This document shows, piece by piece, positions 33,511-50,395 of a stretch of DNA of 64,000 nucleotides. This stretch comes from Sphingomonadales bacterium Ga0077559 (GTDB lineage: Bacteria; Pseudomonadota; Alphaproteobacteria; Sphingomonadales; Sphingomonadaceae), in assembly GCA_001464315.1 (NCBI GenBank), contig LNFK01000076.1, positions 1 through 64,000 on the forward strand, read 5' to 3'. Under the pieces are notes generated by a model. It did not search any database and was not told the origin of the DNA. It saw only the letters and a program-made list of their open reading frames with translations. Each line of letters starts with the position of its first letter. Within the stretch, counting starts at the first letter, position 1. A program made the position numbers and the translations under genes.

Positions 33511-34524
33511 ATGGACAATCAGGTGCGGGTCCGCAACATCACAGATCTGGCACGGCTGGCAGGGGTATCACCAGGGACAGTATCCCGTGCGCTTGCAGAT
33601 TCGCAGCTTATCGCGAAAAAAACACGCGAACGTATTCAGGAGTTGGCGCGCGAACATGACTTCCGTCCCAACGTTATGGCGCGAAATCTGCGCATCAAAC
33701 GCGCTGGAGCAATTGGCGTTTTGATCCCGCTCGGCCATGAAACGGGCCAGCATATCTCTGATCCATTCTTCATCACAATGCTTGGTCATCTGGCCGATGC
33801 GCTGACCGAGCGTGGGCATGATCTGTTGCTGTCGCGCGTTATTCCGAAAGATCCCGACTGGCTTAACCGAGTGGTGGATTCGGGACGCGTCGACGGCGTG
33901 ATACTGATTGGCCAGTCCGACCAGCTTGCCACTATCGATAAGGTTGCCAGCCGTTATTTGCCGCTCGTGGCCTGGGGCGCAAACCTTGCCGGACAGGTGC
34001 ATTGCTCGGTGGGTTCGGACAACCGCAAGGGCGGGCAGCTTGCGACCCAGCATCTCATCGACCAGGGTTGCCGTAATTTTGCATTTTTTGGTGATCCCGT
34101 TTCTCCCGAAATTTCCGAACGTCTGGAAGGATGCCGGACCGCACTTGCCGCCGCCGGTCTGTCCGACTATTTGAGCATATTGTCCGTCCATTTGACCGCT
34201 GAAACCGCACATTCTGCGATCAGCAACTGGCTCGACGAAACCAAACCGATTCCCGATGGCATCATCGCTGCATCCGACGTGGTCGCGATGAGTGCGTTGC
34301 GCGCGCTATCCGAGCATGGCGTTGCAGTGCCGGGCCAAGTGCATGTGGTCGGTTACGACGACTTGGTTTTTGCCAATCAAACCGTACCGACATTGTCTAC
34401 TGTGCGGCAGGATCTGGCGGCCGGCGCAGCCCATCTGGTCGACCTGCTCTTTCGCCGGATTGCAGGAGAAGCGACAAGCTCGGTTGGTCTAGAACCCAAA
34501 TTGGTCGTTCGACAGTCTAGCTGA
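33511..34524 (+). CDS. LacI-family transcriptional regulator (orphan)
   Basis: The 337-residue protein has an N-terminal LacI-type helix-turn-helix (ITDLARLAGVSPGTVSRALA, about residues 9-28), a hinge (PNVMARNLRIKRAGAIGV) and a periplasmic-binding-protein-like effector domain. The DNA-binding start follows the ribosome-binding site AAGGAGAAAG. Such proteins usually repress sugar genes. No sugar genes lie next to it: the divergent neighbour is the parvulin gene and the downstream convergent gene is the dctD-like regulator. The 260-base upstream region has no evident palindrome that I would call an operator. Confidence 0.88.
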   Translation: MDNQVRVRNITDLARLAGVSPGTVSRALADSQLIAKKTRERIQELAREHDFRPNVMARNLRIKRAGAIGVLIPLGHETGQHISDPFFITMLGHLADALTERGHDLLLSRVIPKDPDWLNRVVDSGRVDGVILIGQSDQLATIDKVASRYLPLVAWGANLAGQVHCSVGSDNRKGGQLATQHLIDQGCRNFAFFGDPVSPEISERLEGCRTALAAAGLSDYLSILSVHLTAETAHSAISNWLDETKPIPDGIIAASDVVAMSALRALSEHGVAVPGQVHVVGYDDLVFANQTVPTLSTVRQDLAAGAAHLVDLLFRRIAGEATSSVGLEPKLVVRQSS

Positions 34525-34603: not shown

Positions 34604-35935
34604 TTATACCGGGCGGAAATCCTTGGGTCGCAATCCATAACGGCTCAACTTGTCGTAGAGCGTCTTGCGCGGCGTGCCGAGCGCCTGTTCGAGCCGAAGG
34701 ACATCGCCACCAACAGCGCGTAATGCGTTCTCAATTACTGTCCTTTCAAACTCTGTCACTGTCAGGTGTAGCGGGCGGCTGTCCATAGCGATCTGTGCGT
34801 CGTTATCCGGTAGATTGAGGCCAATGGCCCAGCTACGAGCGAACGCTTCGAGTTCGCGCAAATTGCCTGTCCATTCATGTGTTTGCAGATATTTCCAGAC
34901 ATCGTCAGCGACTTCGCGGTGAGATATTCCCAGTTCGCCTTCATGCCGGGAAAGGAAATGGTGGAAGAGCGCGGCAATGTCTTCGCGCCGGTTCGCAAGC
35001 GGAGCCATCATCAGCCTTACCGCGCTGAGCCGTTCATGGAAAAGGCTTCTACCGTCACTGGCATGGCCAGACCCGTCGTGCAATTGTCGGGTGACTACGA
35101 AACGCAAGTTCAGTTTGCGCGATCGCTCGGCCCCGGCAGGCAGGATGGAGCGGGTGCTCAAGACCGATAGCAGCCGCGCCTGCAAAGCCGGACTGGCAGC
35201 CTCAATCTCGTCGATGAGTAACGTGCCGCCACTGGCCCGCTCGATCAACCCCGTTCGCGACAGGCCGCCCCGGCTAGGCTCGCGCCCGAACAATAACAAG
35301 TCAACGTCCTGATGAGTCAGCGTTCCCGCATCAACCGCGACGAACGGGCGAGTGTGGCGGGGACCGAGTTCATGGATCAATCGCGCAATAAAGGTCTTGC
35401 CGGTGCCGGCCGCACCCTCGACTACCACGTCGACCTCAGTTTGGGCCACCGCCGAAAGCATGCTACGCAGTCTCACGGCGAAGTCCGATGAACCGACAAA
35501 CCCTGTTTGCGCCTGTTGCTTCAGGGTTTGGCGAAGCCTGCGGTTTTCCAGCACCAACCGACGTCTTTCTGCCGCGACGGTAATGGCCCGGATCAGTGCC
35601 GCAGACGAGTAGGGCTTGGTGAAAAAATCTGCCGCCCCGTCTTTCATCGCAGCCACTGCCATAGTCACATCGCCATGGCCAGTTGTGAAAATCACCGGCA
35701 GATCGGGATCCTGCAGCTGCAGCCGCCCAAACAGCGCCAAGCCATCCATGCCCGGCAAGCGAACGTCACTCACCACCACGCCGGGATAGTCATTCGGAAT
35801 ATAGCTGAGCGCACTGTCGGCTTCGCCAAACAGCGCAACCTCCATGCCCTCCAAGCGCAAGGCTTGCGCGACCGCCGGCCCGAGGGCCTCGTCGTCTTCG
35901 ACCAGTACGACGTTTATAGGCTCGTACTCGGTCAT
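34604..35935 (-). CDS. dctD: DctD-like response regulator lacking the GAFTGA loop
   Basis: The 443-residue protein has a receiver domain (phospho-acceptor D57 in VVVSDVRLPGMDG), an AAA+ domain of the sigma-54 activator class (Walker A VEGAAGTGKTF at 172-182, Walker B TLLIDEIE at 238-245, arginine-finger-like HERLSAVRL) and a Fis-type helix-turn-helix C-terminus (VLRLEQALGTPRKTLYDKL). The GAFTGA loop that contacts sigma-54 is replaced around residues 219-230 by REPSRGGLSRTG, so sigma-54 activation may be lost, as in a few NtrC-like proteins that act with sigma-70. It overlaps the dctB-like gene by 4 bases. Confidence 0.88.
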   Translation of the reverse strand: MTEYEPINVVLVEDDEALGPAVAQALRLEGMEVALFGEADSALSYIPNDYPGVVVSDVRLPGMDGLALFGRLQLQDPDLPVIFTTGHGDVTMAVAAMKDGAADFFTKPYSSAALIRAITVAAERRRLVLENRRLRQTLKQQAQTGFVGSSDFAVRLRSMLSAVAQTEVDVVVEGAAGTGKTFIARLIHELGPRHTRPFVAVDAGTLTHQDVDLLLFGREPSRGGLSRTGLIERASGGTLLIDEIEAASPALQARLLSVLSTRSILPAGAERSRKLNLRFVVTRQLHDGSGHASDGRSLFHERLSAVRLMMAPLANRREDIAALFHHFLSRHEGELGISHREVADDVWKYLQTHEWTGNLRELEAFARSWAIGLNLPDNDAQIAMDSRPLHLTVTEFERTVIENALRAVGGDVLRLEQALGTPRKTLYDKLSRYGLRPKDFRPV

Positions 35936-37623
35936 GCGCCGGGAATCAGCATCGTGAACCGCGTGCCTTTGGCCACTGGTTCTTCGACCAAGTCGCCGCC
36001 CAGTCCGCGCATGATATCCTGTGAAATTACCAGCCCCAGGCCGAGCCCGTCGGCTTTGGTCGTTGCAAAGGGTTGGAAAAGATTGGTGCGTTGTCCATCT
36101 GTGATGCCATGACCATTATCGGTAACCGAAAGGCGCCGGAATGGCCCGGATTCACCGATGTCGATCACCACCCTGCCGCCCCGCCCAGTCGCGTCGAAGG
36201 CATTTTGCAGGAGGTTGACCAATACCTGTTCAAGCGCAACATGTTCGCCGCGAACAATCAGTTCGAGCGCGGCCCCAGGTGGCAGGCTAAGGTCAATGTC
36301 CAGCTGCGCTACTCGGTCACGCAACAATAACAGCGCGCCGTCGATAACCTGACGTAGGGGAACCTCACGAGGTTCGCGCTTGCCACGGCGGCTGAACCGG
36401 AGCAGTTCATCGGTTATGGTACCAATCCGGTCGGTCAAAGCCGCTATCCGGGGAAAGTTCGCGGCGGCCTCGTCATGCGCGCCGCGTTCGCTCAGCCGTT
36501 CGCCCGTCTCTGCCAATATCCGGATGGCGGCGACCGGTTGGCGTATTTCATGCCCGACACCCGCCGTAATCTGGCCAAGCGTTGCCAATCGGTTAGCCTG
36601 TTGAAGCTGGTCGCGTAGACGCCCCGTTCGTTCGTGAAGCAGCACGTCGGCGCGGGCCTCCCTTCGTCTTATACTAAAAGCCGCCAGCCCAGCGATCGCT
36701 ACGGCTAGCACCAACAGCATGAGAAATAGCAAACGCCCGTTTGCTTTGGCAGCGGCGAGAGAAGTTGACGGATCAGACAGCAGATGCAGGTTCCAGTCGA
36801 GCGGTCTAACTGACCGACGGCTTTCGATCAGTGTGGGAGTAAGCGCACGCGTGCCACCCTCGCCGAGATCAAATCGCGGTAGCTCCGCCTTACCGAATTG
36901 GCGCAGGTCCTGTTGCGGATCGCGCGTTCCTGGTGGGATCAGCCGTGTGGTATTGAAGCGCCAGGCCGGACTGCTGGTGACCAGAATGATGCCATCGGGG
37001 TCGGTCACATAGACACCCGCCGTGGCTTTTGCCCAGGCTGCTTCGAGTGAATTGAATTCCACCTTGATGGCAACGACGCCAACCGGACCAACCGGGCCAT
37101 CGACGCGGCGGGCGATATATAATCCGGGTCGCCGGCTGACTGTGCCCAAAGCAAACTCGGTCGCTACGCCCGACGCCCGTGCACCGCTAAAATAGCTACG
37201 GAAACCATAATCAGAACCGACAAAGCTGTCTGGCCGGTTCCAGTTGCTTGCCGCTAGCGTTAGCCCCTCACGGTTCATAAGGTAAATGACCGCAGCACCG
37301 GTCTGTTGGGCAATTTGCTGAAGCCGCTGGTTGAGGCCGCGTTGCTGTGCGCTATCGCCGGCCATAAGCGATTGAACCTGGGGATCGCGTGCCAGCACCA
37401 GCGGGACCAGACTGAATTTGTCCAGCTCGCTTTCGAGCCCTGCTGCAAGGATTGCCGCCTCGTTCTGCGCCGCATTTTCGGCTTCTTCAAGTGCAGAGGT
37501 GCGCATCGCTCGGTCGGTCGCCAGCAGACCCAGCGCGGCAAGCAGCAGAATTCCTATCGCGATTATGCCAGCGAGATATCGGCGCCCGGGCTGCGACGGT
37601 GAGGGCGGCCTGCCATTCAGCAT
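35932..37623 (-). CDS. dctB: DctB-like sensor histidine kinase
   Basis: The 563-residue protein has two membrane segments (about residues 17-38 and 285-305) around an extracytoplasmic PDC-like sensor domain that contains GSDYGFRSYFSGA and YVTDPDGIILVTSSP, as in DctB. The cytoplasmic part has the H-box GVGHEIRQPVAAIR (His is the phospho-site), the N-box NLLQNAFDATGRGG and G-box LGLGLVISQDIM. It should sense C4-dicarboxylates or a related ligand and phosphorylate the next-encoded DctD-like regulator. Its start lies 252 bases from the divergent dctA start. Confidence 0.9.
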   Translation of the reverse strand: MLNGRPPSPSQPGRRYLAGIIAIGILLLAALGLLATDRAMRTSALEEAENAAQNEAAILAAGLESELDKFSLVPLVLARDPQVQSLMAGDSAQQRGLNQRLQQIAQQTGAAVIYLMNREGLTLAASNWNRPDSFVGSDYGFRSYFSGARASGVATEFALGTVSRRPGLYIARRVDGPVGPVGVVAIKVEFNSLEAAWAKATAGVYVTDPDGIILVTSSPAWRFNTTRLIPPGTRDPQQDLRQFGKAELPRFDLGEGGTRALTPTLIESRRSVRPLDWNLHLLSDPSTSLAAAKANGRLLFLMLLVLAVAIAGLAAFSIRRREARADVLLHERTGRLRDQLQQANRLATLGQITAGVGHEIRQPVAAIRILAETGERLSERGAHDEAAANFPRIAALTDRIGTITDELLRFSRRGKREPREVPLRQVIDGALLLLRDRVAQLDIDLSLPPGAALELIVRGEHVALEQVLVNLLQNAFDATGRGGRVVIDIGESGPFRRLSVTDNGHGITDGQRTNLFQPFATTKADGLGLGLVISQDIMRGLGGDLVEEPVAKGTRFTMLIPGA

Positions 37624-37689
37624 TGCAGATTGCCCATCGCCTTAAACATACGCTCTCCGTCTCACACTAGAGTATCTCTGTTCGCACAT

Positions 37690-37751
37690 TTTGTCTGGAA
37701 ATCCGCAATTTTGGCAAGCACTTTGTCTGGAATATCGGAATTTAAATCCGA
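37690..37751. promoter_or_regulatory. direct repeats and palindrome between dctB and dctA (candidate operator)
   Basis: TTTGTCTGGAA occurs at 37690-37700 and again at 37722-37732, a 32-base period (three helical turns), and each copy is followed by a similar AT-rich tail. Next comes TCGGA-N7-TCCGA (37735-37751). The region lies 65 to 190 bases from the two divergent starts. A sigma-54-like reading TGGCAAG-N4-TTGTC exists at 37712-37727 but its -12 element is imperfect. The likely binder is the DctD-like regulator encoded next door, which is inference. Confidence 0.5.
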
Positions 37752-37874
37752 AAATCGATGTCATCGATCTGTTTTTTATACGTTTCCTGAGCGAGTCATT
37801 TTTTGTTGTTAACGCTCTTATTCCCCCTATCCTGCCCGCAACTGGATATTAAGTCCGGAGGAGGGGTAGCCGTA

Positions 37875-39260
37875 ATGCGGATAATAGCGCCGACAACCGT
37901 TGGAACAGAAGCGCCTGTCCGGCTGCCCTTTTATCGGCAATTATATGTCCAAGTGTTGACAGCCATCTTCCTGGGTGCGCTGTTGGGGCACCTCTATCCC
38001 GAAATCGGCTCTGCGCTAAAACCGCTGGGTGACGGCTTTATCAAGCTGGTGAAGATGATCATCGCTCCGGTGATTTTCCTCACCGTCGCCACTGGGATTT
38101 CAGGAATGCGCGATTTATCAGCCGTCGGCAGCGTTGCGGGCAAGGCATTTGCCTATTTTCTGTTCTTTTCCACCCTCGCGCTGATCATCGGGTTGGTTGT
38201 CGGCAACATCGTGCAGCCTGGTGCAGGTCTTAACATTGATCCCGGGACCCTCGATGCCAGCAAAGTTCAGGATTACGCCAAAACATCGGAAGGCCAGACG
38301 ATTGCTGGCTTTCTGCTCAACATGATCCCCGAGACTTTATTCAGCGCTATGACCGATGGGAACATTTTGCAGGTTCTTCTCGTCGCGATCCTGACCGGCT
38401 TGGCGCTGGCCGCCACGCGCCCGCACAGCGATCTCGTGCTCGACGTGCTCGCCTCATTCAACGAGGTGATCTTCAAGCTCGTTCACATGTTGATGAAACT
38501 GGCGCCAATCGGGGCATTCGGCGCAATCGCCTTTACAATCGGCGAATTTGGCATCGCATCGCTCGCGAGCCTCGCCGCTTTGGTCGCCACTTTCTATCTC
38601 ACGTCGCTGTTCTTCGTGATCGTCGTGCTTGGTGCAGTCGCCTATTTCACCGGCTTCTCCATCTTCAAGATGATCCGTTTCCTGCGCGAGGAATTGCTGC
38701 TGGTGCTTGGCACGTCGTCGTCGGAAGCTGCGCTGCCGAGCCTGATGGAGAAGCTCGAGATTGCCGGTGCGCGCAAATCGGTGGTCGGCCTCGTGGTTCC
38801 GACCGGCTATTCATTCAATCTCGATGGCACTAACATCTATATGACGCTGGCGGCGCTATTCATAGCGCAGGCGGTTGGCATCGACTTGTCGTTATCCGAT
38901 CAATTGGCCTTGGTGCTGGTCGCCATGATCAGTTCGAAGGGCGCGGCGGGGGTTACTGGTGCGGGTTTCGTGATCCTCGCAACAACCCTGTCGGTTGTGC
39001 CATCGGTTCCCGTCGCAGGCATGGCACTGATTTTAGGTATCGACCGGTTCATGAGCGAATGCCGCGCGCTGACCAACTTCATCGGCAATGCCGTCGCAAC
39101 GATTGTCGTCGCGCGCTGGGAAGGTGCGCTGGATACCGAGCGTCTGGCGGCGGCGATGGCAGGCACGCCGATGCCGTTGCCCGAAGAGGATATCGAACGG
39201 CACGAACGCAGCGGGCCGCGTAGCGAAGCGTTGGCAGAGGTATTGGGCGAGCCGTCATGA
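37875..39260 (+). CDS. dctA: C4-dicarboxylate/proton symporter DctA
   Basis: From ATG 37875, after a strong GGAGGAGGGG ribosome-binding site, the protein has 461 residues; the frame from 37803 adds 24 unlikely residues. It is a DAACS-family transporter: eight to nine membrane segments, [37 protein letters not shown] and the late [17 protein letters not shown]. The family imports succinate, fumarate and malate; some members take aspartate or glutamate. The divergent dctBD genes support control by dicarboxylates. It overlaps the downstream esterase gene by 4 bases (ATGA). Confidence 0.93.
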
Positions 39261-40222
39261 TCGCGCGGCGTACCTTGTTGCAAAATCTCGCCGCGTTGAC
39301 GGCGATTAGCGCTGTGCAATTGGGCGGTGCTGTGCCCGCGATGGCTGACCAATGGGAAGAGATTCCATTATGGCCCGGCAAGCCACCCGGCCGGGGCGGG
39401 GTGACGGGCCCTGAGAAACTCGGCGAAGCAGGTGCGGGATTTGGCGCGCTTTCCAACATCGCGACCCCGCGGATGCGCGTTTATCGCCCCGCAAAACCAA
39501 ACGGAGCAGCTGTTATCGTCTGCGGTGGCGGTGGCTATTTCCGGATTCAATTGTGGAAGGAAAGCACGCCGATTGCCCGCTGGCTGCAAGAGCGCGGCTT
39601 TACCGTGTTCGAGCTGCTCTATCGCCTACCGAACGACGGATGGGATGCCTCAGCGCCGTTCATGGATGCACAGCGGGCGATGCGGATTGTTCGCACCCGG
39701 GCGACTGAGTTTAGCATTGATCCCAAGCAGATCGGCATCATGGGTTTCTCCGCAGGCGGGCACCTCGCCGGGTTCACCGCGCTACAGCCGCAACGCGCAC
39801 TTTACACCGGGTCCGACAAATATGAGAAAGTCAGCGCCAGACCCGATTTTTCCGCGCTGCTGTTTCCCGTGGTATCGCTACGCAAGCCCTATGATACCAC
39901 CCGAACCCGGCGTGAAATCATCGGCGACACCCCCAGCGCCGAAGCAGAGAATACCTGGTCGCTAGACACTTATGCCAGCGCTGATGCTCCGCCGACGATC
40001 ATTTTTGCATCAGCGGACGATAAGACCGCGCCGCCGGGCCATGGCATCATGTTGTTCGAAAAACTCAACGCCGCCGGTGCTTCGGCAGAACTGCATATGT
40101 TTCGCGACGGCGGTCATGGCTGGGGTCTTGGTCGCCCGGAGCAGGTGCTGAGCCAATGGCCGGACATGTTCGTCAAATGGTTAGATTCAGGAAAAATAGT
40201 ACCAAACAAGCAGGGAGAATGA
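39257..40222 (+). CDS. secreted alpha/beta hydrolase (acetyl-xylan-esterase-like)
   Basis: The 321-residue protein has a twin-arginine-like N-terminus ([18 protein letters not shown]) with a signal peptide ending near AMAD. The catalytic elbow is GFSAGGHL with Ser165. The early [10 protein letters not shown] and [12 protein letters not shown] segments resemble the esterase/lipase group that includes acetylxylan esterases and BD-FAE-type feruloyl esterases. It probably cleaves ester bonds outside the cytoplasm. It is coupled to dctA by ATGA and to the TonB receptor gene just downstream, suggesting it prepares substrates for that receptor; this is inference. Confidence 0.85.
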
Positions 40223-40224
40223 AG

Positions 40225-43200
40225 ATGGCAACCAAGATATTCCGCAAGCTGGCGTTGCTCAGCACGACCGGATTGATGACCGCAAATATGGCGTACGCGC
40301 AGGATGCGGTGCCTCCTGTGGCCCAGTCCGCCGAGGAAGCGGAGGCAGCAATTGTCGTAACCGGCTCACGGATCCAGGGCGCGCAGATCAACGACGTGCT
40401 TCCGGTCACCGTTCTTGACGAGCAGCAGATCGAAAATACCGGCGCGTCGTCGGGCGACGAACTGTTTCGCGCACTTCCGCAGAATGGCACGATTGCGTTC
40501 AATGAACAAAACGCCACCACGCAGAATAACGTGCGCGGCGATGTCGGGTCGGTCAACCTGCGCGATCTGGGCACAGGAAACACTTTGCTGCTGATCAACG
40601 GCCGCCGCATGAACCTTCACCCCGGATTCCAGACCGAGTTGCTGGTGCCCGTCGTCAGCCCCGACACAAACGAGATTGCTCCCGGCAGCGTTCGCCGGAT
40701 CGAAGTCCTGCGCGACGGCGCGTCGGCCATCTATGGTGCCGATGCGGTTGCGGGTGTGATCAACACCGTGCTCAAGGGTAATTTGAAAGGCGGTTTTCTT
40801 GAGGGCGACTGGCGCGCATCCGACGGAACCAGCCTGTACAGCTACTCAATCAGTGGCGGACTGGGGTTCGACTTCGGCGGTGGCCGCGGAAATCTTACCT
40901 TGTACGGCGGCCATTTCCACGAAAACGGCCTTGCGTCGTCCAGCCGCGACTATTCGCGCGACGATGATCGCACGCGGTTGCTAGTGGGAACCGATTTCGA
41001 AGGGGAAGCCTCGTTCAACAACCGCAACACTTTTGGCCCGTTCGGCCAATTCGATATTCAGACGTCACCCAACAGCCGCACGCCGATCAATGATGACGAC
41101 TTTTATCTGCAGCCAAGCACGTTCACCGGTTGCCGCATGGATTTCCGCAACGGCATCTGTGCCCGCAACGGCGAGACGCCAACGACCGCAGTTCGGTACA
41201 ACACGATTTTCGGCAACACGCTGATCAGTCGGAAGAACCGCTATAATGCAATGGCCTTGCTCAACTACGAGCTGACCGACAATGTCGAAGCCTATTTCGA
41301 AGGCAGCTATTATCGTTCGGAGAACCAGCGGTTCAACGATGCCTCGGCCATCTTGAGCGCGGTTCCGGTGGGCATAGCGCGCACCGCGTACTGGAACCCG
41401 TTCGGCCCGACCACTTTGGTTGGCGGCGGGGCCAATCCCAATCGCCTGCCCGGCACCACTATTCCGACCACCGGCGCTGATGTCATTATGGAGCGCTATC
41501 GCTTCGTCGATGCGGGCAATCGCGGCGTGTTTGTTGACAAGGACGCGTATCGTCTCGTCGCTGGCCTGCGCGGCAATTTCGGCGCGTGGGATTTCGACAC
41601 CGGCTTCGTGTATTCCGAATCGAAACTGACCGACCTTGAAACCAACCGCGTGTCGCTCACCGCGATGCAGCAGTCGATCAACCGGACGACTCCCGATGCC
41701 TATAATCCGTTCAACGGCGGCTGCATTGACGATCCCGGCCAAGGCGATTGCACCCCGAACCCGGCATCCGTAATCGACGCCTTCCGTATCAATGTGTTCC
41801 GCAAAGGCGGTACAAGCCTCGCACTGGCGGACTTCAAGGTCAGCCGTGACGACCTGTTTGTATTACCTGGCGGCAACCTTGGCGTTGCAACGGGAATCGA
41901 ATGGCGGCGCGAGACCTTCTTCGATGATCGCGATCCCCGGCTCGACGGCACGATTACCTTCAGGGATAGCGTGACCGGCGTGTTCAACGGCAGCGACGTC
42001 GCCGGCACCAGCCCGTCACCCGACACAGATGGAACGCGTACCGTTTATTCGGCCTATGCCGAATTGTTCGTGCCCTTGGTCAGCGAAGATATGAATATCC
42101 CGCTGGTCGAGGCATTTAACGTCCAGATGGCCGGACGGATCGAACGCTTTCAGGATATCGACGCAACCGCGATGGTTCCGCGTGTCGCCGCATCATGGAC
42201 CACTATTCCCGGCGTAACTTTCCGGGGAGCATGGTCGCAAGGTTTCCGCGCGCCCAATCTGGCGCAAGTCAACGACGATGGCACGACCCGGTCCAACACC
42301 CGCGACGATTTCGTGTTCTGTCAGGCACAGGTCAGAAAAGGCCTGCTATCCGGTCTCGACGCCTGCCCTGGCGCAGGTGTCATCAGCTTCAGGTCGGGTG
42401 CTCGCAGCCTCAAGCCCGAAGACAGCGAGAGCATCAACCTGGGTATTGTGCTTGAGCCCAAGTTCATTCCCGGCCTGACACTAACGGCGGACTATTGGCG
42501 GGTCAAACAGACCGGCTTGGTCGGCACATTCGGCGACGACAATGCGATTGCGCTCGACCTGCTCCGCCGTTTGGGCGGCAGCAGCAATCCGAATGTCATC
42601 CGCGCCGCGCCGACGGTGGATGATATCGCGTTGTTCACGGGCACGGGTCTCGCCCCGACAGGCAGGATCGTTCAAGTACTTGATCCCTATCTGAACCTCG
42701 ACAGCCGCGTGTCGAAGGGTTGGGACTTCGGTATGGTCTACAATGTGCCGGAATTCGGGGCGGGTAAGTTCCGCCTCCGCCTAAACGCCGCACGGCTGAA
42801 AAGCTTTGTCCAGAGCGCCGGTGTTGACGGCGAGGAACTGCTCACCGGAATCGCGGCGGGTACTCTACCGGCCGACGTTACCGTAGGCGGGCTGGGTGAA
42901 CTACTCGAAATCGATGGCCGTCCCAAATGGCGCGTCAGCGGATCGATCAATTGGGAGAGCGGTCCTGTCGAGATCGGTCTGTTCGGCCAGTATACCGGCA
43001 AAGTTTGGGACACCAGCGTGGTGCGCGACATTTTGCTGGTTTCGGATGATCCCAATGCCAACTTCTTCCGCGTCAACGACCAGTTCCTGACCAATCTGTC
43101 GGTGTCCTACACGATCGATAATGACACGGCCCTCAACGGAACCCGGTTGCGCTTTGCGATCAACAACCTGTTCGACAAGGATCCGCCGCTCGCCGACGAA

Positions 43201-43275
43201 ACCTATGGCTTCTACAGCGAGTTGTACACAGCACGCGGGCGTGTCTTCCACGTCGAACTCCGCAAGAAGTTTTGA
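40225..43275 (+). CDS. TonB-dependent outer membrane receptor
   Basis: I use ATG 40225, which has GGGAG at a suitable distance; ATG 40219, two codons earlier, overlaps the esterase stop. The protein has 1,016 residues, a signal peptide (IFRKLALLSTTGLMTANMAY then AQDAV), a TonB box-like AIVVTGSRIQG, a plug domain (about 50-200; RRIEVLRDGASAIYGADAVAG) and a beta-barrel ending HVELRKKF with the terminal Phe that barrel proteins need. Such receptors import large or scarce molecules with TonB energy. Because the genes around it encode a secreted esterase and peptidase, the ligand may be a modified peptide or ester. No TonB or ExbBD genes are nearby. Confidence 0.92.
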   Translation: MATKIFRKLALLSTTGLMTANMAYAQDAVPPVAQSAEEAEAAIVVTGSRIQGAQINDVLPVTVLDEQQIENTGASSGDELFRALPQNGTIAFNEQNATTQNNVRGDVGSVNLRDLGTGNTLLLINGRRMNLHPGFQTELLVPVVSPDTNEIAPGSVRRIEVLRDGASAIYGADAVAGVINTVLKGNLKGGFLEGDWRASDGTSLYSYSISGGLGFDFGGGRGNLTLYGGHFHENGLASSSRDYSRDDDRTRLLVGTDFEGEASFNNRNTFGPFGQFDIQTSPNSRTPINDDDFYLQPSTFTGCRMDFRNGICARNGETPTTAVRYNTIFGNTLISRKNRYNAMALLNYELTDNVEAYFEGSYYRSENQRFNDASAILSAVPVGIARTAYWNPFGPTTLVGGGANPNRLPGTTIPTTGADVIMERYRFVDAGNRGVFVDKDAYRLVAGLRGNFGAWDFDTGFVYSESKLTDLETNRVSLTAMQQSINRTTPDAYNPFNGGCIDDPGQGDCTPNPASVIDAFRINVFRKGGTSLALADFKVSRDDLFVLPGGNLGVATGIEWRRETFFDDRDPRLDGTITFRDSVTGVFNGSDVAGTSPSPDTDGTRTVYSAYAELFVPLVSEDMNIPLVEAFNVQMAGRIERFQDIDATAMVPRVAASWTTIPGVTFRGAWSQGFRAPNLAQVNDDGTTRSNTRDDFVFCQAQVRKGLLSGLDACPGAGVISFRSGARSLKPEDSESINLGIVLEPKFIPGLTLTADYWRVKQTGLVGTFGDDNAIALDLLRRLGGSSNPNVIRAAPTVDDIALFTGTGLAPTGRIVQVLDPYLNLDSRVSKGWDFGMVYNVPEFGAGKFRLRLNAARLKSFVQSAGVDGEELLTGIAAGTLPADVTVGGLGELLEIDGRPKWRVSGSINWESGPVEIGLFGQYTGKVWDTSVVRDILLVSDDPNANFFRVNDQFLTNLSVSYTIDNDTALNGTRLRFAINNLFDKDPPLADETYGFYSELYTARGRVFHVELRKKF

Positions 43276-43279
43276 TGTG

Positions 43280-44464
43280 ATGCGGCAGGCAGGAGTTTGG
43301 CTAGCTTTCGCCGCGTGGGTTATGATTGGGAGCGGGTCGGTTGCGTTTGCGCAGCCACCCGCGCCCACGTCCAAGCCGTCGGGGTCAGGATGCCAGACAG
43401 CACAGGGTAGCGTCCATTTCGACTTCGAAGGCGCGTCGCGTTCGGCTTGCTACGTCGAGGATGAAAGGACGCTTTCGATTCTGGTCACGCCCGAACATCT
43501 GCCGCCGATCAACCCGAGCCCTTGGTATGCCTTCCGATACCATGCAGTCGAAGGTGGCAAGCTGACCGTCAATGTGCGCTATATCGGCGCGCGCCACCGC
43601 TATGCTCCGCAATGGCGTGGGAGCGGCGACCCATCGGCATTTTCGGTTGCGGTGGGGCAGGATCGTAGCGCCGTATCGATCACGCTTCCTCCGGGCGAAG
43701 GCGTTGTCACCGCGCAGCCGCTTGTCACATCGGCCCATTACGATAAGCTGCTCGAGCAACTCGCAAAAAACCGGCGGGGCAGCAGAATCATTTTGGGCCG
43801 ATCACACGACGGACGGTCAATCAAAGCCGTCCGGCTGGGCAATAGCGATGCCCCGAGCCTTGTGCTGCTGCTTGGGCGTCAGCATCCGCCCGAAGTGACC
43901 GGTGCGGTTGCGATGGACGCGTTTGCACTGACGATTGCCAAGCTGGTCCGTTCAGGTGCAATCGACGGAAAGCAATTCCAGTTCCTGATTGTTCCGTTGC
44001 TCAATCCCGACGGTGTTGCCCGCGGGCACTGGCGCGCGAACTTGGGCGGCGCGGACCTTAACCGCGACTGGGGCACTTTCAAGCAGCCTGAGACCCGCGC
44101 GATCGGCGACTGGCTAGCCCGGCTCCCCGCACAAGTACGTCCTGTCCTGATGCTCGATTTCCATTCGACCAACCGCAACCTTTTCTATGTGCAGGGTGAC
44201 GAGGCGAGTGCGCAGGGCAAGGCCTTCCTAGCTGCGTGGCTCAGGGGTAAGGAGAACGCCTTTGCAGGATATCCGTTCAAGATCGAGCCGCGCGATGCCA
44301 ATCCAGGTTTGGGCACGACGAAGAACTGGTTCAGTACGACATACGGCATCCCAGCCTATACCTACGAGGTCGGAGATGACTCCGACCCTGCAGCCGTTCG
44401 CACCACGGCAGAGGCGTTGGCCCAAAATTTGATACCATCGCTGGTTATGGCGCTTAAAGAGTGA
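43280..44464 (+). CDS. secreted M14 zinc carboxypeptidase
   Basis: From ATG 43280 the protein has 394 residues with a signal peptide (VWLAFAAWVMIGSGSVAFAQ). After an N-terminal strand domain (about residues 40-150) comes an M14 domain with zinc ligands GRQHPPEVTG (H202, E205) and LDFHSTNRN (H295) and catalytic YTYEVGDD (E363). The early domain resembles that of cytosolic-carboxypeptidase-like M14 members. It cleaves C-terminal residues from peptides outside the cytoplasm. It starts 4 bases after the TonB receptor stop and probably feeds the receptor or the DctA system. Confidence 0.87.
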   Translation: MRQAGVWLAFAAWVMIGSGSVAFAQPPAPTSKPSGSGCQTAQGSVHFDFEGASRSACYVEDERTLSILVTPEHLPPINPSPWYAFRYHAVEGGKLTVNVRYIGARHRYAPQWRGSGDPSAFSVAVGQDRSAVSITLPPGEGVVTAQPLVTSAHYDKLLEQLAKNRRGSRIILGRSHDGRSIKAVRLGNSDAPSLVLLLGRQHPPEVTGAVAMDAFALTIAKLVRSGAIDGKQFQFLIVPLLNPDGVARGHWRANLGGADLNRDWGTFKQPETRAIGDWLARLPAQVRPVLMLDFHSTNRNLFYVQGDEASAQGKAFLAAWLRGKENAFAGYPFKIEPRDANPGLGTTKNWFSTTYGIPAYTYEVGDDSDPAAVRTTAEALAQNLIPSLVMALKE

Positions 44465-44516
44465 TGTAGTTGATGAGGCGCATGGCTGATGTTCAGTTCG
44501 AGCCGGAGATTTATTA

Positions 44517-45452
44517 ATGAGCGTTTGCATTATCCTTCGCGTCGCAGGTTTACTTGCCTGTCTCGGGGCGTCTTTCACAGCGGTGCCAGCCAGAGCAAAA
44601 GAATGCAAACCGCTAGCGTCCGGATCGTCGCAGATCGTTTTCTCTGGCTGGTCGGGTCCCAAACTGCCGGTTTTCGTGCACAAGCCGCATACGGCCGGAG
44701 CGAATAGCCGTATCGTCTTCGTCATGCACGGCGTGCTACGCGACGGCGATCGCTACCGCGATGAATGGCGCGATCTGGCCGAAAAGCATGACCTGATCAT
44801 CGTGGTTCCGACATTCGGCAGGAATGATTTTCCAACCACGGGCTCCTACAATCTTGGGAACATTATCGATGAGAGTGGCCGCAGAAATCCTCAGGTAAAA
44901 TGGTCATTCTCGGCTATCGAGCCGTTGTTCGACGATGTCGTCTGCCGTATCGCCGGGACCCAGCGAGGCTATGCGCTTTATGGCCACTCAGCGGGCGGGC
45001 AGTTCGTTCACCGCTTTGTCGCCTTCGCCGATGCGCCCCGGATGGAATCAGCGGTCGCCGCAAATTCTGGCTGGTATACGATGCCGGACGATACGGCTTT
45101 CCCTTATGGCTGGGGCGGCGACGTGGCAGGGCTGGTTTCGCCCGAAAAGGCATTTCGACGACCGCTGACGATTTTGCTGGGCACGCAAGATACCGACCGC
45201 AACGATCCCAACCTGCGCATCAACGCGCAGGCCGACAAACAGGGGCTGACACGTTATGACAGGGGGCATGGTTTTCTTAATGCTGCGCGCAAATTGGTCG
45301 GCACGGATACGCCGCTTGGTTGGCAGATCGCTTATGCGCCAGGGATCGGACACGACAATGGACGAATGGCACCCTTCGCCATTCCCCACCTGATTGGCGT
45401 AAGTGAGGGCTCCCAGCACCGGACGTCGCCTTTGTCAAAGAACTTACCCTAA
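44517..45452 (+). CDS. secreted alpha/beta hydrolase (PHB-depolymerase/esterase-like)
   Basis: The 311-residue protein has a signal peptide (ILRVAGLLACLGASFTAVPA, then RAKEC). The catalytic elbow is YGHSAGGQF (S158), with the oxyanion strand IVFVMHGVLRDGDRY, and a late GIGHD His. The layout resembles esterases and polyhydroxyalkanoate-depolymerase-like proteins. It follows the M14 gene after 52 bases on the same strand and is probably the last gene of the dctA operon. Its substrate is unknown. It is convergent with the halogenase-like gene, 48 bases away. Confidence 0.82.
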   Translation: MSVCIILRVAGLLACLGASFTAVPARAKECKPLASGSSQIVFSGWSGPKLPVFVHKPHTAGANSRIVFVMHGVLRDGDRYRDEWRDLAEKHDLIIVVPTFGRNDFPTTGSYNLGNIIDESGRRNPQVKWSFSAIEPLFDDVVCRIAGTQRGYALYGHSAGGQFVHRFVAFADAPRMESAVAANSGWYTMPDDTAFPYGWGGDVAGLVSPEKAFRRPLTILLGTQDTDRNDPNLRINAQADKQGLTRYDRGHGFLNAARKLVGTDTPLGWQIAYAPGIGHDNGRMAPFAIPHLIGVSEGSQHRTSPLSKNLP

Positions 45453-45500
45453 TTAAATCAGGCATAAACTACCCGACCCAATCGGGCGCAGGCGGCGATT

Positions 45501-47006
45501 TTATAACGGTGCTGGGCAGTAATTTTTCAAATAATCGCCATGCGCAGGCATATGTTCGACAACGAATCGGATCGATTGCTCCATCTCGTCGATCTCTTTT
45601 CGGGTGGTCGGTTCTTTCACAGCCTCCGCCATTGCGTTGTGGCCGCCCATATGGATGCCTTGCCCCATCATGACCGCCGCCCAGCTGGTTTCAGTGAACA
45701 GCTCGTCATCTTCACGGAAAATCTGGCCATTGAGGCGGAATAGTTCGATCTTTTCGGTCAGGGTGTCAGGTACCGGCATATTGCGGCAATAATTCCAGAA
45801 AGGGCTGTCGTCGCGGCTTGTCGTATTATAATGCAGAATAAGAAAATCACGGATGCGCGCATATTCTTTGCCCGTCAGCCGGTTGAACGCGTCCTCCTGC
45901 ACCTGCGTAATCCCGTCGAGCGAAAGGAGCGAAATCAGCTTGTTGATGCCGGTGTTAACGAGGTGGAGCGACGTCGATTCCAGCGGCTCCATAAACCCCG
46001 ACGCCAGCCCCAACGCGACCACATTCTTATTCCAGAATTTCTTGCGGCGACCCGTAACGAAGCGCAGGAAATTGGGCTCGGCCTGCGGCTTTCCGGCGAT
46101 GTTGCCCACCAATATGCCGTGCGCTTCGTCATCTGACATATATTCACTGCAATAGACATGGCCATTTCCATTGCGATGTTGCAGCGGCACCTGCCATTGC
46201 CATCCCGCAGAATGCGCGGTGGCACGTGTGTACGGTAATGGCCCGCTGCCATCTTCGCGCAGGCATGGCAATGCGACGGCGCGATTGCACGGCAGGTAAT
46301 TTGACCAGTCGTCATAACCGGTTTTCAGCGCCTGTTCGATCAATAGCCCGCGAAAACCCGAGCAGTCGATGAACAGATCGCCCTTAAGCATTTCCCCGTC
46401 GTCCATTGTCACCGATGAAACAAAGCCATTTTCGCCATTGAGCGTTACATCGACAACTTTGCCCTCGCGCCTTCCAACCCCCCGCGCCTCGGCATATTTG
46501 CGCAAATATCGCGCATATCGTCCGGCATCGATATGATAAGCATAATTAACCGGTGGCAAGTCTTCGCGCTGATAATCTTCCGTACGGGCAAAGCGGCCAA
46601 AATACGCGGCCATGGTTTCCACATTATAAACCTGTATTGGCCGCTTGTCGCCAGCCTGACGATATTTGTGCCATACATGGTGGAAGGCTATCCCTTCGAT
46701 CTGATATCCATAGGAACCAAACGGGTGGATATAGCTATCGCCGATCTTACCCCAATTAACAAACTGGATGCCAAGCTTAAAACTTCCCTGCACTGCCGCA
46801 AGCATTTCGCGCTCATCGACTTCGAGCAATTTGTTGAAATCGAGAAACGGTGGAATGGTGGCTTCGCCGACGCCAACCGTTCCTATTTCTTCGGATTCCA
46901 GAAGTGTGATAGACACTTTCCGCCCTGCACTGAGCTTCGAGAGCGCTGCAGCGGCCATCCAGCCAGCGGTGCCGCCCCCCACAATGATGATTTGTTCGAT
47001 CGCCAT
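45501..47006 (-). CDS. flavin-dependent tryptophan-halogenase-like protein of a TonB-receptor locus
   Basis: The 501-residue protein has the FAD motif VGGGTAGWMAAAAL (residues 9-22), VGVGEATIPPFLDF, the active-site Lys segment SFKLGIQFVNWG and the WxWxxP motif GWQWQVPLQHR, followed by CSGFRGLLIEQAL. These match the flavin-dependent halogenase family. In Caulobacter- and Sphingomonas-type genomes such genes sit beside TonB receptors and are not linked to secondary metabolites, so the substrate may be a carbohydrate-linked aromatic or unknown. It is divergent from the TonB receptor gene and shares a region with LacI-type operators. A reductase partner is not visible. Confidence 0.87.
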   Translation of the reverse strand: MAIEQIIIVGGGTAGWMAAAALSKLSAGRKVSITLLESEEIGTVGVGEATIPPFLDFNKLLEVDEREMLAAVQGSFKLGIQFVNWGKIGDSYIHPFGSYGYQIEGIAFHHVWHKYRQAGDKRPIQVYNVETMAAYFGRFARTEDYQREDLPPVNYAYHIDAGRYARYLRKYAEARGVGRREGKVVDVTLNGENGFVSSVTMDDGEMLKGDLFIDCSGFRGLLIEQALKTGYDDWSNYLPCNRAVALPCLREDGSGPLPYTRATAHSAGWQWQVPLQHRNGNGHVYCSEYMSDDEAHGILVGNIAGKPQAEPNFLRFVTGRRKKFWNKNVVALGLASGFMEPLESTSLHLVNTGINKLISLLSLDGITQVQEDAFNRLTGKEYARIRDFLILHYNTTSRDDSPFWNYCRNMPVPDTLTEKIELFRLNGQIFREDDELFTETSWAAVMMGQGIHMGGHNAMAEAVKEPTTRKEIDEMEQSIRFVVEHMPAHGDYLKNYCPAPL

Positions 47007-47056
47007 ATGCTACATCCTCTCCTTGTCCGCATAGCCGATTAGCGCAAAACTGCAAA

Positions 47057-47090
47057 TTGTGAACGTTCATTTTGTCTCTTGTGAACGCTC
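47057..47090. promoter_or_regulatory. two LacI-type boxes between the halogenase and receptor genes
   Basis: TGAACGTTCA at 47060-47069 is a perfect 10-base palindrome inside TTGTGAACGTTCA, and TTGTGAACGCTC repeats the left half at 47079-47090, centres 22 bases apart. LacI-family operators usually have a CG centre in this kind of palindrome. The boxes lie in the divergent region of the halogenase and receptor genes. The LacI regulator encoded at 51455 is the expected binder (inference). Confidence 0.6.
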
Positions 47091-47158
47091 TCAATTGGCG
47101 TTATGCACAGAATTAATAGTGGGAGTTATACCCACGAGTCAGTATCAGGGAGGATCAT

Positions 47159-50100
47159 TTGGCACGCAAATCTATATTCGGAGTGTTGCATTCGCAGCGG
47201 CTTGTCGCATTAACGACTGCATCAAGTCTTGCATTATGTGCAGCGCAACCGGCATTCGCCCAAAGCGCTGAGCAGCCCGATGAAATTGCTGAAGATGCCG
47301 ACGCAGAAGATGTCATTGTCGTCACCGGCTTTAAGAAATCGCTGGAGAACGCGCAAAATATCAAGCGTGATTCGGATACTTTCGTCGATGCCATAACCGC
47401 TGAGGATATAGGTGCGCTGCCTGACCGTTCGGTCGCAGAAGCACTTCAGCGCGTGCCAGGCGTCAACATTGGGCGCTTCGAGAAGACGAGCGACCCGGAC
47501 CGATTCTCGGTCGAAGGCACGGGCGTCATCATTCGCGGCCTGCCCTTTGTCCGTTCGGAGCTCAATGGGCGTGATATCTTTTCGGCTACTGGTGGAACGG
47601 TACTTTCATTTAATGATGTGTCGCCCGAGCTTTTGGGCCGGGTCGAAGTCTTTAAAAACGTAACAGCCGATATGATCGACGGCGGCATCGCAGGCACCGT
47701 TAACCTCGTCACTCGTAAGCCGCTCGATAGTCCCGGCCTTAAGGTCGCTGGCACGATCGAGGGGAATTACGGCGATTTGGCTAAGGAATGGTCGCCGGGA
47801 TATTCTGGTATCATTTCCAATACCTGGGAAACCAGTGGAGGCAGCAAGTTCGGCCTTCAGCTGGGCTATGCGCGCTCGGAACTCGTCAGCCGCACTGATG
47901 CATCGCAGCTGACTGACCCATGCTACCGTGCCGCCACTCTCACTTCTACGTGCTTGCGCGTGCGGGATGTAGGCTCCGGTGGCTTTGGCAACGTAAATTT
48001 TAACGAGACCAATTTTCCACCTGCAGGTACGGTTATCGTGCCGAAGGGGGCCGGTGTTCGGACTACCACTCTGGAACGTGATCGCGAGGCGTTTTCAGCT
48101 GTCGCACAATTCGAAAGCGGGGATGGCCGACTTGTAGCGACTGCGGAGTTCCTGCGTTCCAAAACCAAATTCTTTACCGACGAATTCGCCATATTGGCGC
48201 TGGTGAATAATGATGCCGGATTCCCGGTTCCGGCCAGCGGCAGCACTTGGACATTCGACGATAACAATGTTTTCCAGACCGGCACCTTGACACAGACAGG
48301 CGGCGACTCGGGCTTCTCGCCATGGGGTGGCCTACCGACTGAACTTCTGCGCTTCCAACGCCAGACTGAGGCAACCACCGAGGACTTCTCGTTCGACGCC
48401 AAGTTCGAAGCGACTGATCGCCTGCGTTTCAACTTCGAATTACAGCATATCGGGTCTGATCTTAGCCAGGACGCGATAATCGGCACAATGGCGACATTCT
48501 CAGACGTCCGCATCGACAATACCGGCAATGTTCCCAAGGTCGAGTTCATCTTGCCGCAAGGCGCACCGCAAGGAATTTACGGCAGTCCGGAATACACCTA
48601 TTTCTGGTTTTTGCTCGATAGCCAGGCGCGCAACGAAGGTGATCTCAACAGCGTTCGTTTCGACGTCGACTATGACATCAGCGATGAAGGCTTCTTCAAG
48701 AAAGCTAGTTTCGGCACGCGCTGGGCGGAGCGTGACCGCGTTACCCGCGACAGCAATTTCGGCAACTGGGGCACGCTTGGCGCGCCCTGGACGGGCCGGG
48801 ACGGGTCTTGGAATAGGCCTGGCCCCAGCGGTCCATTACCCGGCGCGCGCCCCTATGGCGGTGGCGGTGGCGCATACCCAATCGATTTCCCCGCTGCAGC
48901 CTCGTTCCGCAATCCATTCGCGGACGGCTTTCAGCGCGGCAACGCCCCGACCCCGATTGAGAATGGTGGCGGCTTTTTCTATGGCGGCGACGATTTCATC
49001 GGCGAGTATCTAAATGGCACAACCGCAACACAGGGCGCTGCGATCACCCGTTGGTCCTTCCCCGACCGCTTGGGCGAAGCCTGGGAACCAATCACCGATC
49101 GCCGCAACGCTGACGGAACGGCTTGCGCCCCTTTCTGCACTGGCGAAATTTCGGATGTGACAGAGAAAACCAAGGCCGCTTATGCGCGGGTCGATTTCGG
49201 TAGCGATTTCGGCAACGGTTGGAACCTCATCGGTAACGTCGGCGTTCGCTATGTCCGCACCACCGTCGAGAGCGGCGGGGTAATTACGCTGCCGAATCCG
49301 GACCGGTTTGATGCAGTCTTGGCCGGCGGCAATGGCGACGGTCGGGTTCAGGTCTCTGAAATCCAGACTGTCTGCAACAACACGGTTGCAGGCCAGCAGA
49401 GACCCGGATTCTGCTCACTATCGAGCACAAGGCAGGCGGAATTTGCCGCAGCGCATACTGGACAGGTGATCGTCGATGATCGTGACATTAACTTCGATCA
49501 CTGGCTGCCCAGCTTTAACGCAAAGCTCGATGTCGGCGGCGGGCTGCTGTTCCGTTTTGCTGTTTCAAAGGGCATTTCGCGCCCCGACTTGGCGCTGTTC
49601 CGTGCTGGCGGTACCGTTTCGGACAATACAACGGATCTTGTTTCCGATGGTACGCTAGCTACAGGCCCTCTATTCCAGCTCTTCACTGGCAACCGCACCA
49701 TCCAGGCGACCCAATCGTGGAACTACGATCTTTCGGCCGAATGGTATTTCGATACTGTTGGCTCAATCACCGTATCGGCGTTTCTTAAGGACATTAAGGG
49801 GATTGTCAGCAGCGGCGTAAACGTCGTCGATTACCCTTCAGCCAACGGCGACATCGCAGTTGAGGTCAATGGCCCGAGCAACGAACTGGGCGGAACGCTG
49901 AAGGGTGTCGAAATCAGCCACCAGCAGACTTACGACTTCCTGCCAGGATTGCTGAGCGGGCTTGGTTCGCAACTGACCTATACCTATGTCGACGCGGGCA
50001 ATTTCTCCAACCCTGATCTCGCCGGGAACCGCGGCACCTTTGCGTCGCTGCAGCCACTCCAAGGTGTTTCAAAGCACACAGTCAATGCTACCGTGTTCTA

Positions 50101-50395
50101 CGAGAAGGGTCCGATAGCCTTGCGTGCGGCCTATAACTGGCGGTCGGATTTCCTAATCACCCCGCGTGATGACATTTTTCCGTTCTCGCCAATCTGGCAG
50201 GAATCGACCGGCCAACTTGACGCGTCGATCTTCTATTCCGTTACGGACAATATCAAGCTGGGCGTCCAGGGCGTGAACCTGCTAGACACGGTCACGCGAA
50301 CCTCACAAGTGGTCGATTTTGACGGAACACGGCTAACCCGTTCGGCATTCCGCAACGACCGCCGGTTTACTTTCCTCGCACGGTTAGACTTCTAG
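47159..50395 (+). CDS. TonB-dependent receptor, Caulobacter-type (carbohydrate locus)
   Basis: The 1,078-residue protein starts at TTG 47159, preceded by GGGAGG, with a signal peptide (RLVALTTASSLALCAAQPAF, cleaved near AQS). The TonB box is DVIVVTGFKKSLENAQ and the plug holds DRSVAEALQRVPGVNIGRFE. The length, plug wording and barrel ending FLARLDF fit the TIGR01782-type family of large TonB receptors that import oligosaccharides. The neighbouring GH16, GH3, LacI and sugar transporters suggest a beta-glucan fragment as ligand. A strong terminator follows it. Confidence 0.93.
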   Translation: MARKSIFGVLHSQRLVALTTASSLALCAAQPAFAQSAEQPDEIAEDADAEDVIVVTGFKKSLENAQNIKRDSDTFVDAITAEDIGALPDRSVAEALQRVPGVNIGRFEKTSDPDRFSVEGTGVIIRGLPFVRSELNGRDIFSATGGTVLSFNDVSPELLGRVEVFKNVTADMIDGGIAGTVNLVTRKPLDSPGLKVAGTIEGNYGDLAKEWSPGYSGIISNTWETSGGSKFGLQLGYARSELVSRTDASQLTDPCYRAATLTSTCLRVRDVGSGGFGNVNFNETNFPPAGTVIVPKGAGVRTTTLERDREAFSAVAQFESGDGRLVATAEFLRSKTKFFTDEFAILALVNNDAGFPVPASGSTWTFDDNNVFQTGTLTQTGGDSGFSPWGGLPTELLRFQRQTEATTEDFSFDAKFEATDRLRFNFELQHIGSDLSQDAIIGTMATFSDVRIDNTGNVPKVEFILPQGAPQGIYGSPEYTYFWFLLDSQARNEGDLNSVRFDVDYDISDEGFFKKASFGTRWAERDRVTRDSNFGNWGTLGAPWTGRDGSWNRPGPSGPLPGARPYGGGGGAYPIDFPAAASFRNPFADGFQRGNAPTPIENGGGFFYGGDDFIGEYLNGTTATQGAAITRWSFPDRLGEAWEPITDRRNADGTACAPFCTGEISDVTEKTKAAYARVDFGSDFGNGWNLIGNVGVRYVRTTVESGGVITLPNPDRFDAVLAGGNGDGRVQVSEIQTVCNNTVAGQQRPGFCSLSSTRQAEFAAAHTGQVIVDDRDINFDHWLPSFNAKLDVGGGLLFRFAVSKGISRPDLALFRAGGTVSDNTTDLVSDGTLATGPLFQLFTGNRTIQATQSWNYDLSAEWYFDTVGSITVSAFLKDIKGIVSSGVNVVDYPSANGDIAVEVNGPSNELGGTLKGVEISHQQTYDFLPGLLSGLGSQLTYTYVDAGNFSNPDLAGNRGTFASLQPLQGVSKHTVNATVFYEKGPIALRAAYNWRSDFLITPRDDIFPFSPIWQESTGQLDASIFYSVTDNIKLGVQGVNLLDTVTRTSQVVDFDGTRLTRSAFRNDRRFTFLARLDF

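Follow-up and report, generated by a model that had tools for sequence, protein, structure and literature searches.

Several described systems come close to the locus reported here. PahZ1 enzymes cut the beta-amide bonds of polyaspartate (PMC4456602), DctBD-dctA systems take up C4 dicarboxylates, polysaccharide utilisation loci serve the breakdown and uptake of sugars, the cytosolic carboxypeptidases (CCP) belong to the peptidase family M14, and a polymalate hydrolase is on record from Comamonas acidovorans. We analysed 64,000 nucleotides of DNA from Sphingomonadales bacterium Ga0077559 (contig LNFK01000076.1, positions 1 to 64,000; hereafter the window), in which two divergent units occupy positions 34604-45452: the minus strand carries dctB and dctD, and the plus strand carries dctA followed by genes for an esterase, a TonB-dependent receptor, an M14 carboxypeptidase and an alpha/beta hydrolase. 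The conserved gene order, the kinship of the last hydrolase with PahZ1, one residue of the M14 enzyme and the signature of the symporter together sharpen the reading of these genes to a poly-C4-acid utilisation locus. We consider it somewhat probable that the locus serves to utilise extracellular polymers or oligomers built of malate-like or aspartate-like C4 acids. A description of such a locus was not found in the open-licence PMC literature.

The plus-strand unit is compact. dctA (37875-39260) encodes a C4-dicarboxylate symporter; the BD-FAE/PaeX-like esterase gene (39257-40222; Pfam BD-FAE at 75 bits, with a match below the cut-off to the NCBIfam PaeX-like model) overlaps it by 4 bases and is overlapped by another 4 bases by the gene for the receptor (40219-43275; 1018 residues, Pfam Plug and barrel), whose best paralogue in its own genome reaches just 112 bits. 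The gap between the receptor gene and that of the CCP-like M14 carboxypeptidase (43280-44464; Pfam Peptidase_M14) is 4 bases, a figure that depends on an uncertain M14 start with a GTG directly 5' of the ATG, and 52 bases separate M14 from the PahZ1-like hydrolase (44517-45452). The M14 enzyme and the esterase have signal-like N-terminal sequences; these and other signal peptides were judged by eye. A scan of 37600-45700 gave little sign of internal promoters, with 4 promoter-like sites against 3.1 by chance, of which the sole plus-strand one (43297-43326) lies within the M14 gene. On the minus strand, dctB (35932-37623; sensor histidine kinase, Pfam HisKA and HATPase_c) overlaps by 4 bases dctD (34604-35935), which encodes an NtrC-type response regulator with the Pfam domains Response_reg, Sigma54_activat and HTH_8. 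Open reading frame coordinates and Pfam/NCBIfam families bear out the genes, strands and order given in an initial annotation made from this sequence, and the repeats that it mentioned between dctB and dctA are present as two related 18-base sites.

The arrangement is shared with relatives. A profile search for the M14 protein covered 397 genomes of the family, with a maximum of 5 candidates scored per genome, and showed a clear break: 49 genomes exceeded 300 bits, the threshold for an M14 carrier, and the next match reached 111 bits. Some M14 protein beyond E 1e-20 occurs in 368 of the 397 genomes, non-carriers scoring 111 bits or less. All 49 M14 loci, window included, were examined. In 46 of them the M14 gene is preceded on its own strand by that of a related receptor (the exceptions being L211, L215 and L217); 28 have a DctA at 60% identity or more, and in 24 of those 28 the esterase accompanies it. 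The complete dctDB/dctA-esterase-receptor-M14 block, whose recurrence the initial annotation had proposed to look for, is present in 22 loci, the window among them, and the same gene order persists down to 33-37% identity (L019, L185, L214). Because the order recurs in relatives, the neighbourhood is more than chance. TonB receptors are numerous in such genomes, which lends some credit to the view that these are unrelated genes and chance neighbours; an order kept at such low identity and 22 complete blocks largely refute it, and we regard it as hardly credible. Some regions among the loci are repeated (L018/L084, L041/L188, L075/L185 and L106/L186; L030 and L194 also look identical), and the carrier genomes are related to one another; the expected count given below assumes independence. 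The M14 genes of L019 (G020) and L125 (G073) have one in-frame stop each, from decay of the copy or an assembly error, and an in-frame stop also lies inside the esterase stretch of L027 (4315-5274).

The product of the last gene of the putative operon, for which no Pfam family matched, resembles poly(aspartic acid) hydrolase-1, with E 4.1e-63 to PDB 6ve6 over residues 28-288 of 311 and E 1.2e-41 to 9o7u; the unassigned LpqC (3d0k) matches it as well as 9o7u does (E 1.1e-41). We take 6ve6 and 9o7u to be the PahZ1 of Sphingomonas sp. KT-1 and of Pedobacter sp. KP-2, respectively. Ser158, Asp225 and His279, presumably the catalytic Ser-Asp-His residues, align with the 6ve6 triad and are kept in all 14 linked copies. 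PahZ1 at E 1e-30 or better is carried by 36 of the 397 family genomes. By hand count, 23 genomes have both PahZ1 and M14, against 4.4 expected if the 36 and 49 carriers were independent, and in 14 of the 23 the two genes lie within 10 kb of each other. Among the M14 loci, 14 of 49 have a PahZ1-like gene within about 9.5 kb. In 12 of these it follows M14 directly; L179 has it on the far side of dctD, and L219 further along. PahZ1 is not a fixed member of the block.

Four groups are supported in the PahZ1 tree: the window clade (10 rows, 100/99), Porphyrobacter/Erythrobacter rows in which the gene adjoins dctD (4 rows, 99/97), an L019/L075 group (3 rows, 100/99) and a Verrucomicrobiota group including L081 (7 rows, 98/97). 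The deep forks joining the supported clades are open, and the three PDB rows are partial. Separate recruitment of the PahZ1 lineages is likely on this branching, though not proved. Unlike PahZ1 lineages share their partners but differ in where the gene stands among them, which argues for a common task. A wider PahZ1 survey of a named collection, comprising the best 80 of 542 confirmed loci from several phyla, chosen by PahZ1 and many of them contig ends, points to similar company. Similarity clusters over 93 loci (L015-L106 and the window) place a receptor in 39, a symporter in 21 and an M14 protein in 20, each cluster being named from one representative; the aspartase and DASS clusters lie above the curated NCBIfam cut-offs, and the isoaspartyl peptidase, D-amino-acid dehydrogenase, gamma-glutamyltransferase (GGT), aldolase and amidohydrolase clusters below them. 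In the Opitutaceae-type bins L051 and L081, PahZ1 is accompanied by a receptor and DctA; in L054 and L064 it is found beside M14 and a receptor, and M14 is its partner in L065, from a Woeseiaceae bin, and in L090, from a Myxococcota bin.

Other neighbours of PahZ1 were observed in the same survey. In the Erythrobacteraceae-type loci L032, L035, L036, L037, L039 and L045, the genes for PahZ1 and an M20 peptidase converge, and their surroundings are conserved. A PahZ1-PahZ2 pair was considered there, PahZ2 being presumably M20-like, but is not proposed: poly(Asp) hydrolase-2 is absent among the solved relatives of that M20 at E 1e-10. PahZ1 adjoins apparent ABC transporter genes in L070, L073, L082 and L023 (shared clusters 6 and 29, by eye). 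A GGT-like gene lies near PahZ1 in L040, L051, L066, L069 and L081 (cluster 34, with the representative from L081), and a PEP-carboxykinase-like gene was seen by eye in L051, L054, L064, L066 and L081.

The M14 enzyme offers a second clue to the substrate. His202, Glu205, His295, Glu363, Arg252, Asn261 and Arg262 are identical in all 49 M14 proteins; by the numbering of carboxypeptidase A (CPA), we take them to provide the zinc ligands, the catalytic Glu363 and a clamp for the carboxyl end of the chain (Arg252, Asn261 and Arg262). Residue 348 lies 15 positions ahead of the catalytic Glu and is basic throughout (Lys in 48 of 49, Arg in one), and a wider alignment, from which the M14 of L019 with its in-frame stop was excluded, has Lys in 16 of 18 and His in 2 of 18. 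According to the portion of PMC9925722 used here, residue 255 sets the specificity of vertebrate M14 enzymes, and a basic residue there leads to acidic chain ends. Since a basic residue occupies the probable specificity position, the enzyme of the window is predicted to prefer acidic chain ends. Its predicted structure (mean pLDDT 80.5) comes nearest to the bacterial CCP-like protein 3l2n (Z 29.3, 333 aligned, rmsd 3.2); the match to CCP5 (8v3p) has Z 27.4, 348 aligned and rmsd 3.6, and that to CPO has Z 21.8 over 241 residues. These features would also suit a broad scavenging role, directed at any proteins or peptides whose C-termini are acidic, with DctA as a mere neighbour taking up metabolites: M14 is a peptidase family, the specificity residue is basic, and TonB receptors are common beside peptidases. 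Such scavenging leaves the esterase and PahZ1 unexplained, however, and Pfam found no endopeptidase in the operon, while the receptor-M14 pair keeps DctBD in 22 and DctA in 28 of the 49 loci. We judge it unlikely.

The symporter and its partners bear on which C4-acid polymer is used. The DctA of the window scores 643 bits against NF002461, above the cut-off of 513, and narrowly misses that of NF009587, also named DctA (567 against 570 bits). Ser stands at the position of GltPh Asp394 in all 28 DctAs of the window's class. In GltPh-type symporters, as set out in the extract of PMC12668577 that we used, Asp394 binds the amino group and divides acidic amino acids from dicarboxylates; a table of positions for symporter residues was available from part of PMC3958442. 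The relatives of the esterase have Ser165 of its motif in 24 of 24 proteins aligned there and His287 in 23 of 23. A sister class, comprising 14 of the 49 M14 loci (L170, L171, L178, L183, L184, L195, L196, L198, L199, L204, L210, L211, L218 and L219), holds M14 with an amidohydrolase; its receptor is 53-69% like that of the window in 13 of the 14, and 13 of the 14 have a D-amino-acid dehydrogenase-like gene. The symporter of this class, present in 9 of the 14 loci, has Asp394 in 9 of 9, together with Arg397, Thr398, Asn401 and Asp405, although its residue 390 is Asn. Some loci of the class have a DASS transporter, and some an aspartase-superfamily lyase that has a signal-like start. Within 9.5 kb, the esterase occurs in 0 of 14 sister-class loci and the amidohydrolase in 0 of 28 DctA-class loci. 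The receptor-M14 core appears, from these gene contents, to pair either with an esterase and a dicarboxylate symporter or with an amidohydrolase and an acidic-amino-acid symporter.

Because of this split, between an esterase with a Ser394 DctA and an amidohydrolase with an Asp394 symporter, we place beta-polymalate slightly ahead of beta-linked polyaspartate as the substrate of the window's class. Tentatively, that class would be a beta-polymalate or other malate-polyester locus; PahZ1 enzymes would by nature serve to depolymerise natural poly-C4-acids, synthetic polyaspartate being an isosteric side substrate, and the sister class would be the counterpart for amide polymers, so that the choice of ester or amide chemistry and residue 394 of the symporter change in concert. 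An amide version within the same frame takes a share of the favoured reading and is possible for the window itself: the substrate would be beta-linked polyaspartate or an isoaspartyl-rich peptide, with aspartate entering via DctA. PahZ1 activity is known on beta-Asp amide bonds, and isoaspartyl peptidase, aspartase and D-amino-acid dehydrogenase adjoin PahZ1 or M14 elsewhere. The best-scoring 6ve6 match among the loci (L062, 53%) lies beside dctD-dctB, DctA and a receptor 25% like that of the window, and the window's own genome encodes, away from the locus, an Asparaginase_2-family isoaspartyl peptidase. The amide version must nevertheless accommodate Ser rather than Asp at the amino-group position of all 28 DctAs, and an esterase that belongs to the window's class where an amidohydrolase is never found. 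The sister class has a bearing on one further alternative, namely that the locus takes up an amino-carboxylate metal chelator and breaks it down. Metallophores are often imported by TonB receptors, and the aspartase-superfamily lyase might act on N-substituted aspartates; the linkage to DctBD and to a carbon-acid symporter fits such a role poorly, and on this gene linkage we hold it to be very improbable.

Several observations weigh against a poly-C4-acid locus or against malate as its unit. PahZ1 is absent nearby in 18 of the 22 complete blocks, its 36 carriers are a small part of the family, and many PahZ1 loci are without any of the partners. Lys348 is equated with CPA residue 255 by its spacing from the catalytic Glu, not by residue-level superposition. 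In other phyla PahZ1 occurs with isoaspartyl peptidase in 6 loci and with aspartase in 5, and L081 combines isoaspartyl peptidase with a Ser394-type DctA, all of which favours aspartate. The Comamonas polymalate hydrolase, of 43 kDa, is reported, in the section of PMC9210645 that we draw on, to be without serine- or metallo-esterase character. Overall, the proposal of the initial annotation that the operon scavenges dicarboxylates or acidic amino acids is supported in part: the cutting of ester- or peptide-linked forms of these that it envisaged, followed by import of the fragments and the acid, fits the PahZ1 match, the basic residue of M14 and the DctA signature. The initial annotation mentioned neither the kinship of the last hydrolase with PahZ1 nor the missing GAFTGA of DctD.

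The flanks of the operon hold further genes. A LacI-type regulator gene (33511-34524) lies just beyond dctD and faces it, and at 45501-50395 a tryptophan-halogenase-like gene on the minus strand and the gene for another large TonB receptor, of the Xanthomonas-Caulobacter type, point away from each other; a halogenase is also found near the L180 operon. These neighbours, together with the resemblance of the esterase to acetylxylan and pectin acetylesterases, would suit a sugar utilisation locus in which a polysaccharide is freed of dicarboxyl or acetyl groups attached by ester bonds. We find this improbable, as the LacI, halogenase and second receptor genes stand outside the conserved block in the 49 loci, save for the halogenase in L180, and Pfam/NCBIfam detected neither a glycoside hydrolase nor a lyase encoded there.

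Under the favoured reading, utilisation of a poly-C4-acid, the PahZ1-like hydrolase would cut the chain internally and the BD-FAE esterase would cut or strip ester bonds. The TonB receptor would bring the resulting oligomers into the periplasm, and the CCP-like M14 enzyme may remove end units, holding the free carboxyl and the acidic side chain by Arg252, Asn261-Arg262 and Lys348. The released C4 dicarboxylate would then be imported by DctA. DctB is expected to sense C4 dicarboxylate, and DctD may act at two sites spaced by 32 bp to switch the dctA operon by a route other than the classic sigma-54 contact.

The two probable regulator sites, to which no strand is assigned, are site 1 at 37692-37709 (TGTCTGGAAATCCGCAAT) and site 2 at 37724-37741 (TGTCTGGAATATCGGAAT). 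Both are degenerate forms of a palindrome, TGTGCGG-N4-CCGCACA, that is seen in relatives and was derived from L019, L033, L034, L056 and L062. When spacings of 20-60 bp were compared in 29 dctB-dctA gaps, 32 bp scored best in 22 and tied for best in 4 (the window, L030, L194 and L216); the exceptions are L062, L182 and L173, of which L173 is in part N. The summed score at 32 bp is 650 versus 514 for the next spacing, and 100 shuffles gave a mean of 398 and a largest value of 412. Twelve of the regions (L194, L200-L203, L206-L209, L212, L213 and L216) were fetched after the motif and spacing had been seen, and 32 bp is best in 10 of these and tied in 2. The site pair of the window itself scores just 18 of 28. 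A pattern written from its two sites, after they had been seen, has no third match in the 64 kb, with 0.04 expected.

The GAFTGA loop is absent from all 29 linked DctDs, that of the window reading LLFGREPSRGGLSRTGLIERA. Mutants in GAFTGA are mostly unable to activate, by the account in the available part of PMC7175178. Elsewhere, the window's genome has rpoN and four GAFTGA-coding sites. The strict Walker A pattern is present in 15 of the 29 DctDs, and ATPase activity is thus not assured. A scan for -24/-12 elements gave one 2-mismatch match in the gap, at 37712-37726, overlapping site 2, and a window total of 113 versus 91.7 by chance. Because none of the 29 linked DctDs carries GAFTGA, classic sigma-54 control by DctD is unlikely; control would instead run through the paired sites and use another sigma factor. 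DctBD systems exist, then, without the sigma-54 contact loop yet with a strictly spaced pair of sites.

Compared with described DctBD-dctA systems for C4-dicarboxylate uptake, the locus has the same divergent dctBD and dctA and a DctA-type signature; it differs in a DctD without GAFTGA, in the 32-bp site pair and in having dctA as the first gene of an operon with a receptor and hydrolases. The last hydrolase shares with PahZ1 (6ve6, 9o7u) its sequence family over residues 28-288, the catalytic triad and a Sphingomonadales background. In the literature covered, however, PahZ1 appears solely as an enzyme acting on synthetic polyaspartate, while the gene here sits in a dctBD/dctA/TonB-receptor/M14 operon and its substrate is putative; if our reading is true, the locus gives a natural setting for enzymes known from industrial polymer work. 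The M14 model has the two-domain fold of the cytosolic carboxypeptidases (4a37, 4b6z and CCP5, 8v3m), from which the protein is set apart by a signal-like N-terminus, judged by eye, an identity of about 16-20% and a putative substrate. With the Comamonas acidovorans polymalate hydrolase, compared by description only, the locus would share a poly-C4-acid as carbon source, a use that is predicted here, and it is unlike that hydrolase in the serine- or metallo-esterase character already discussed. The two classes form a natural comparison on the same receptor-M14 core, with Ser versus Asp at 394 and esterase versus amidohydrolase, that makes the substrate assignment directly testable. Like polysaccharide utilisation loci, finally, this locus brings together a receptor, hydrolases, an inner-membrane transporter and a regulator; unlike them, it has no carbohydrate backbone-cleaving enzyme by Pfam/NCBIfam, and its transporter is one for C4 acids. 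If the reading holds, the principle of the TonB-receptor utilisation locus would be widened from sugars to poly-carboxylates.

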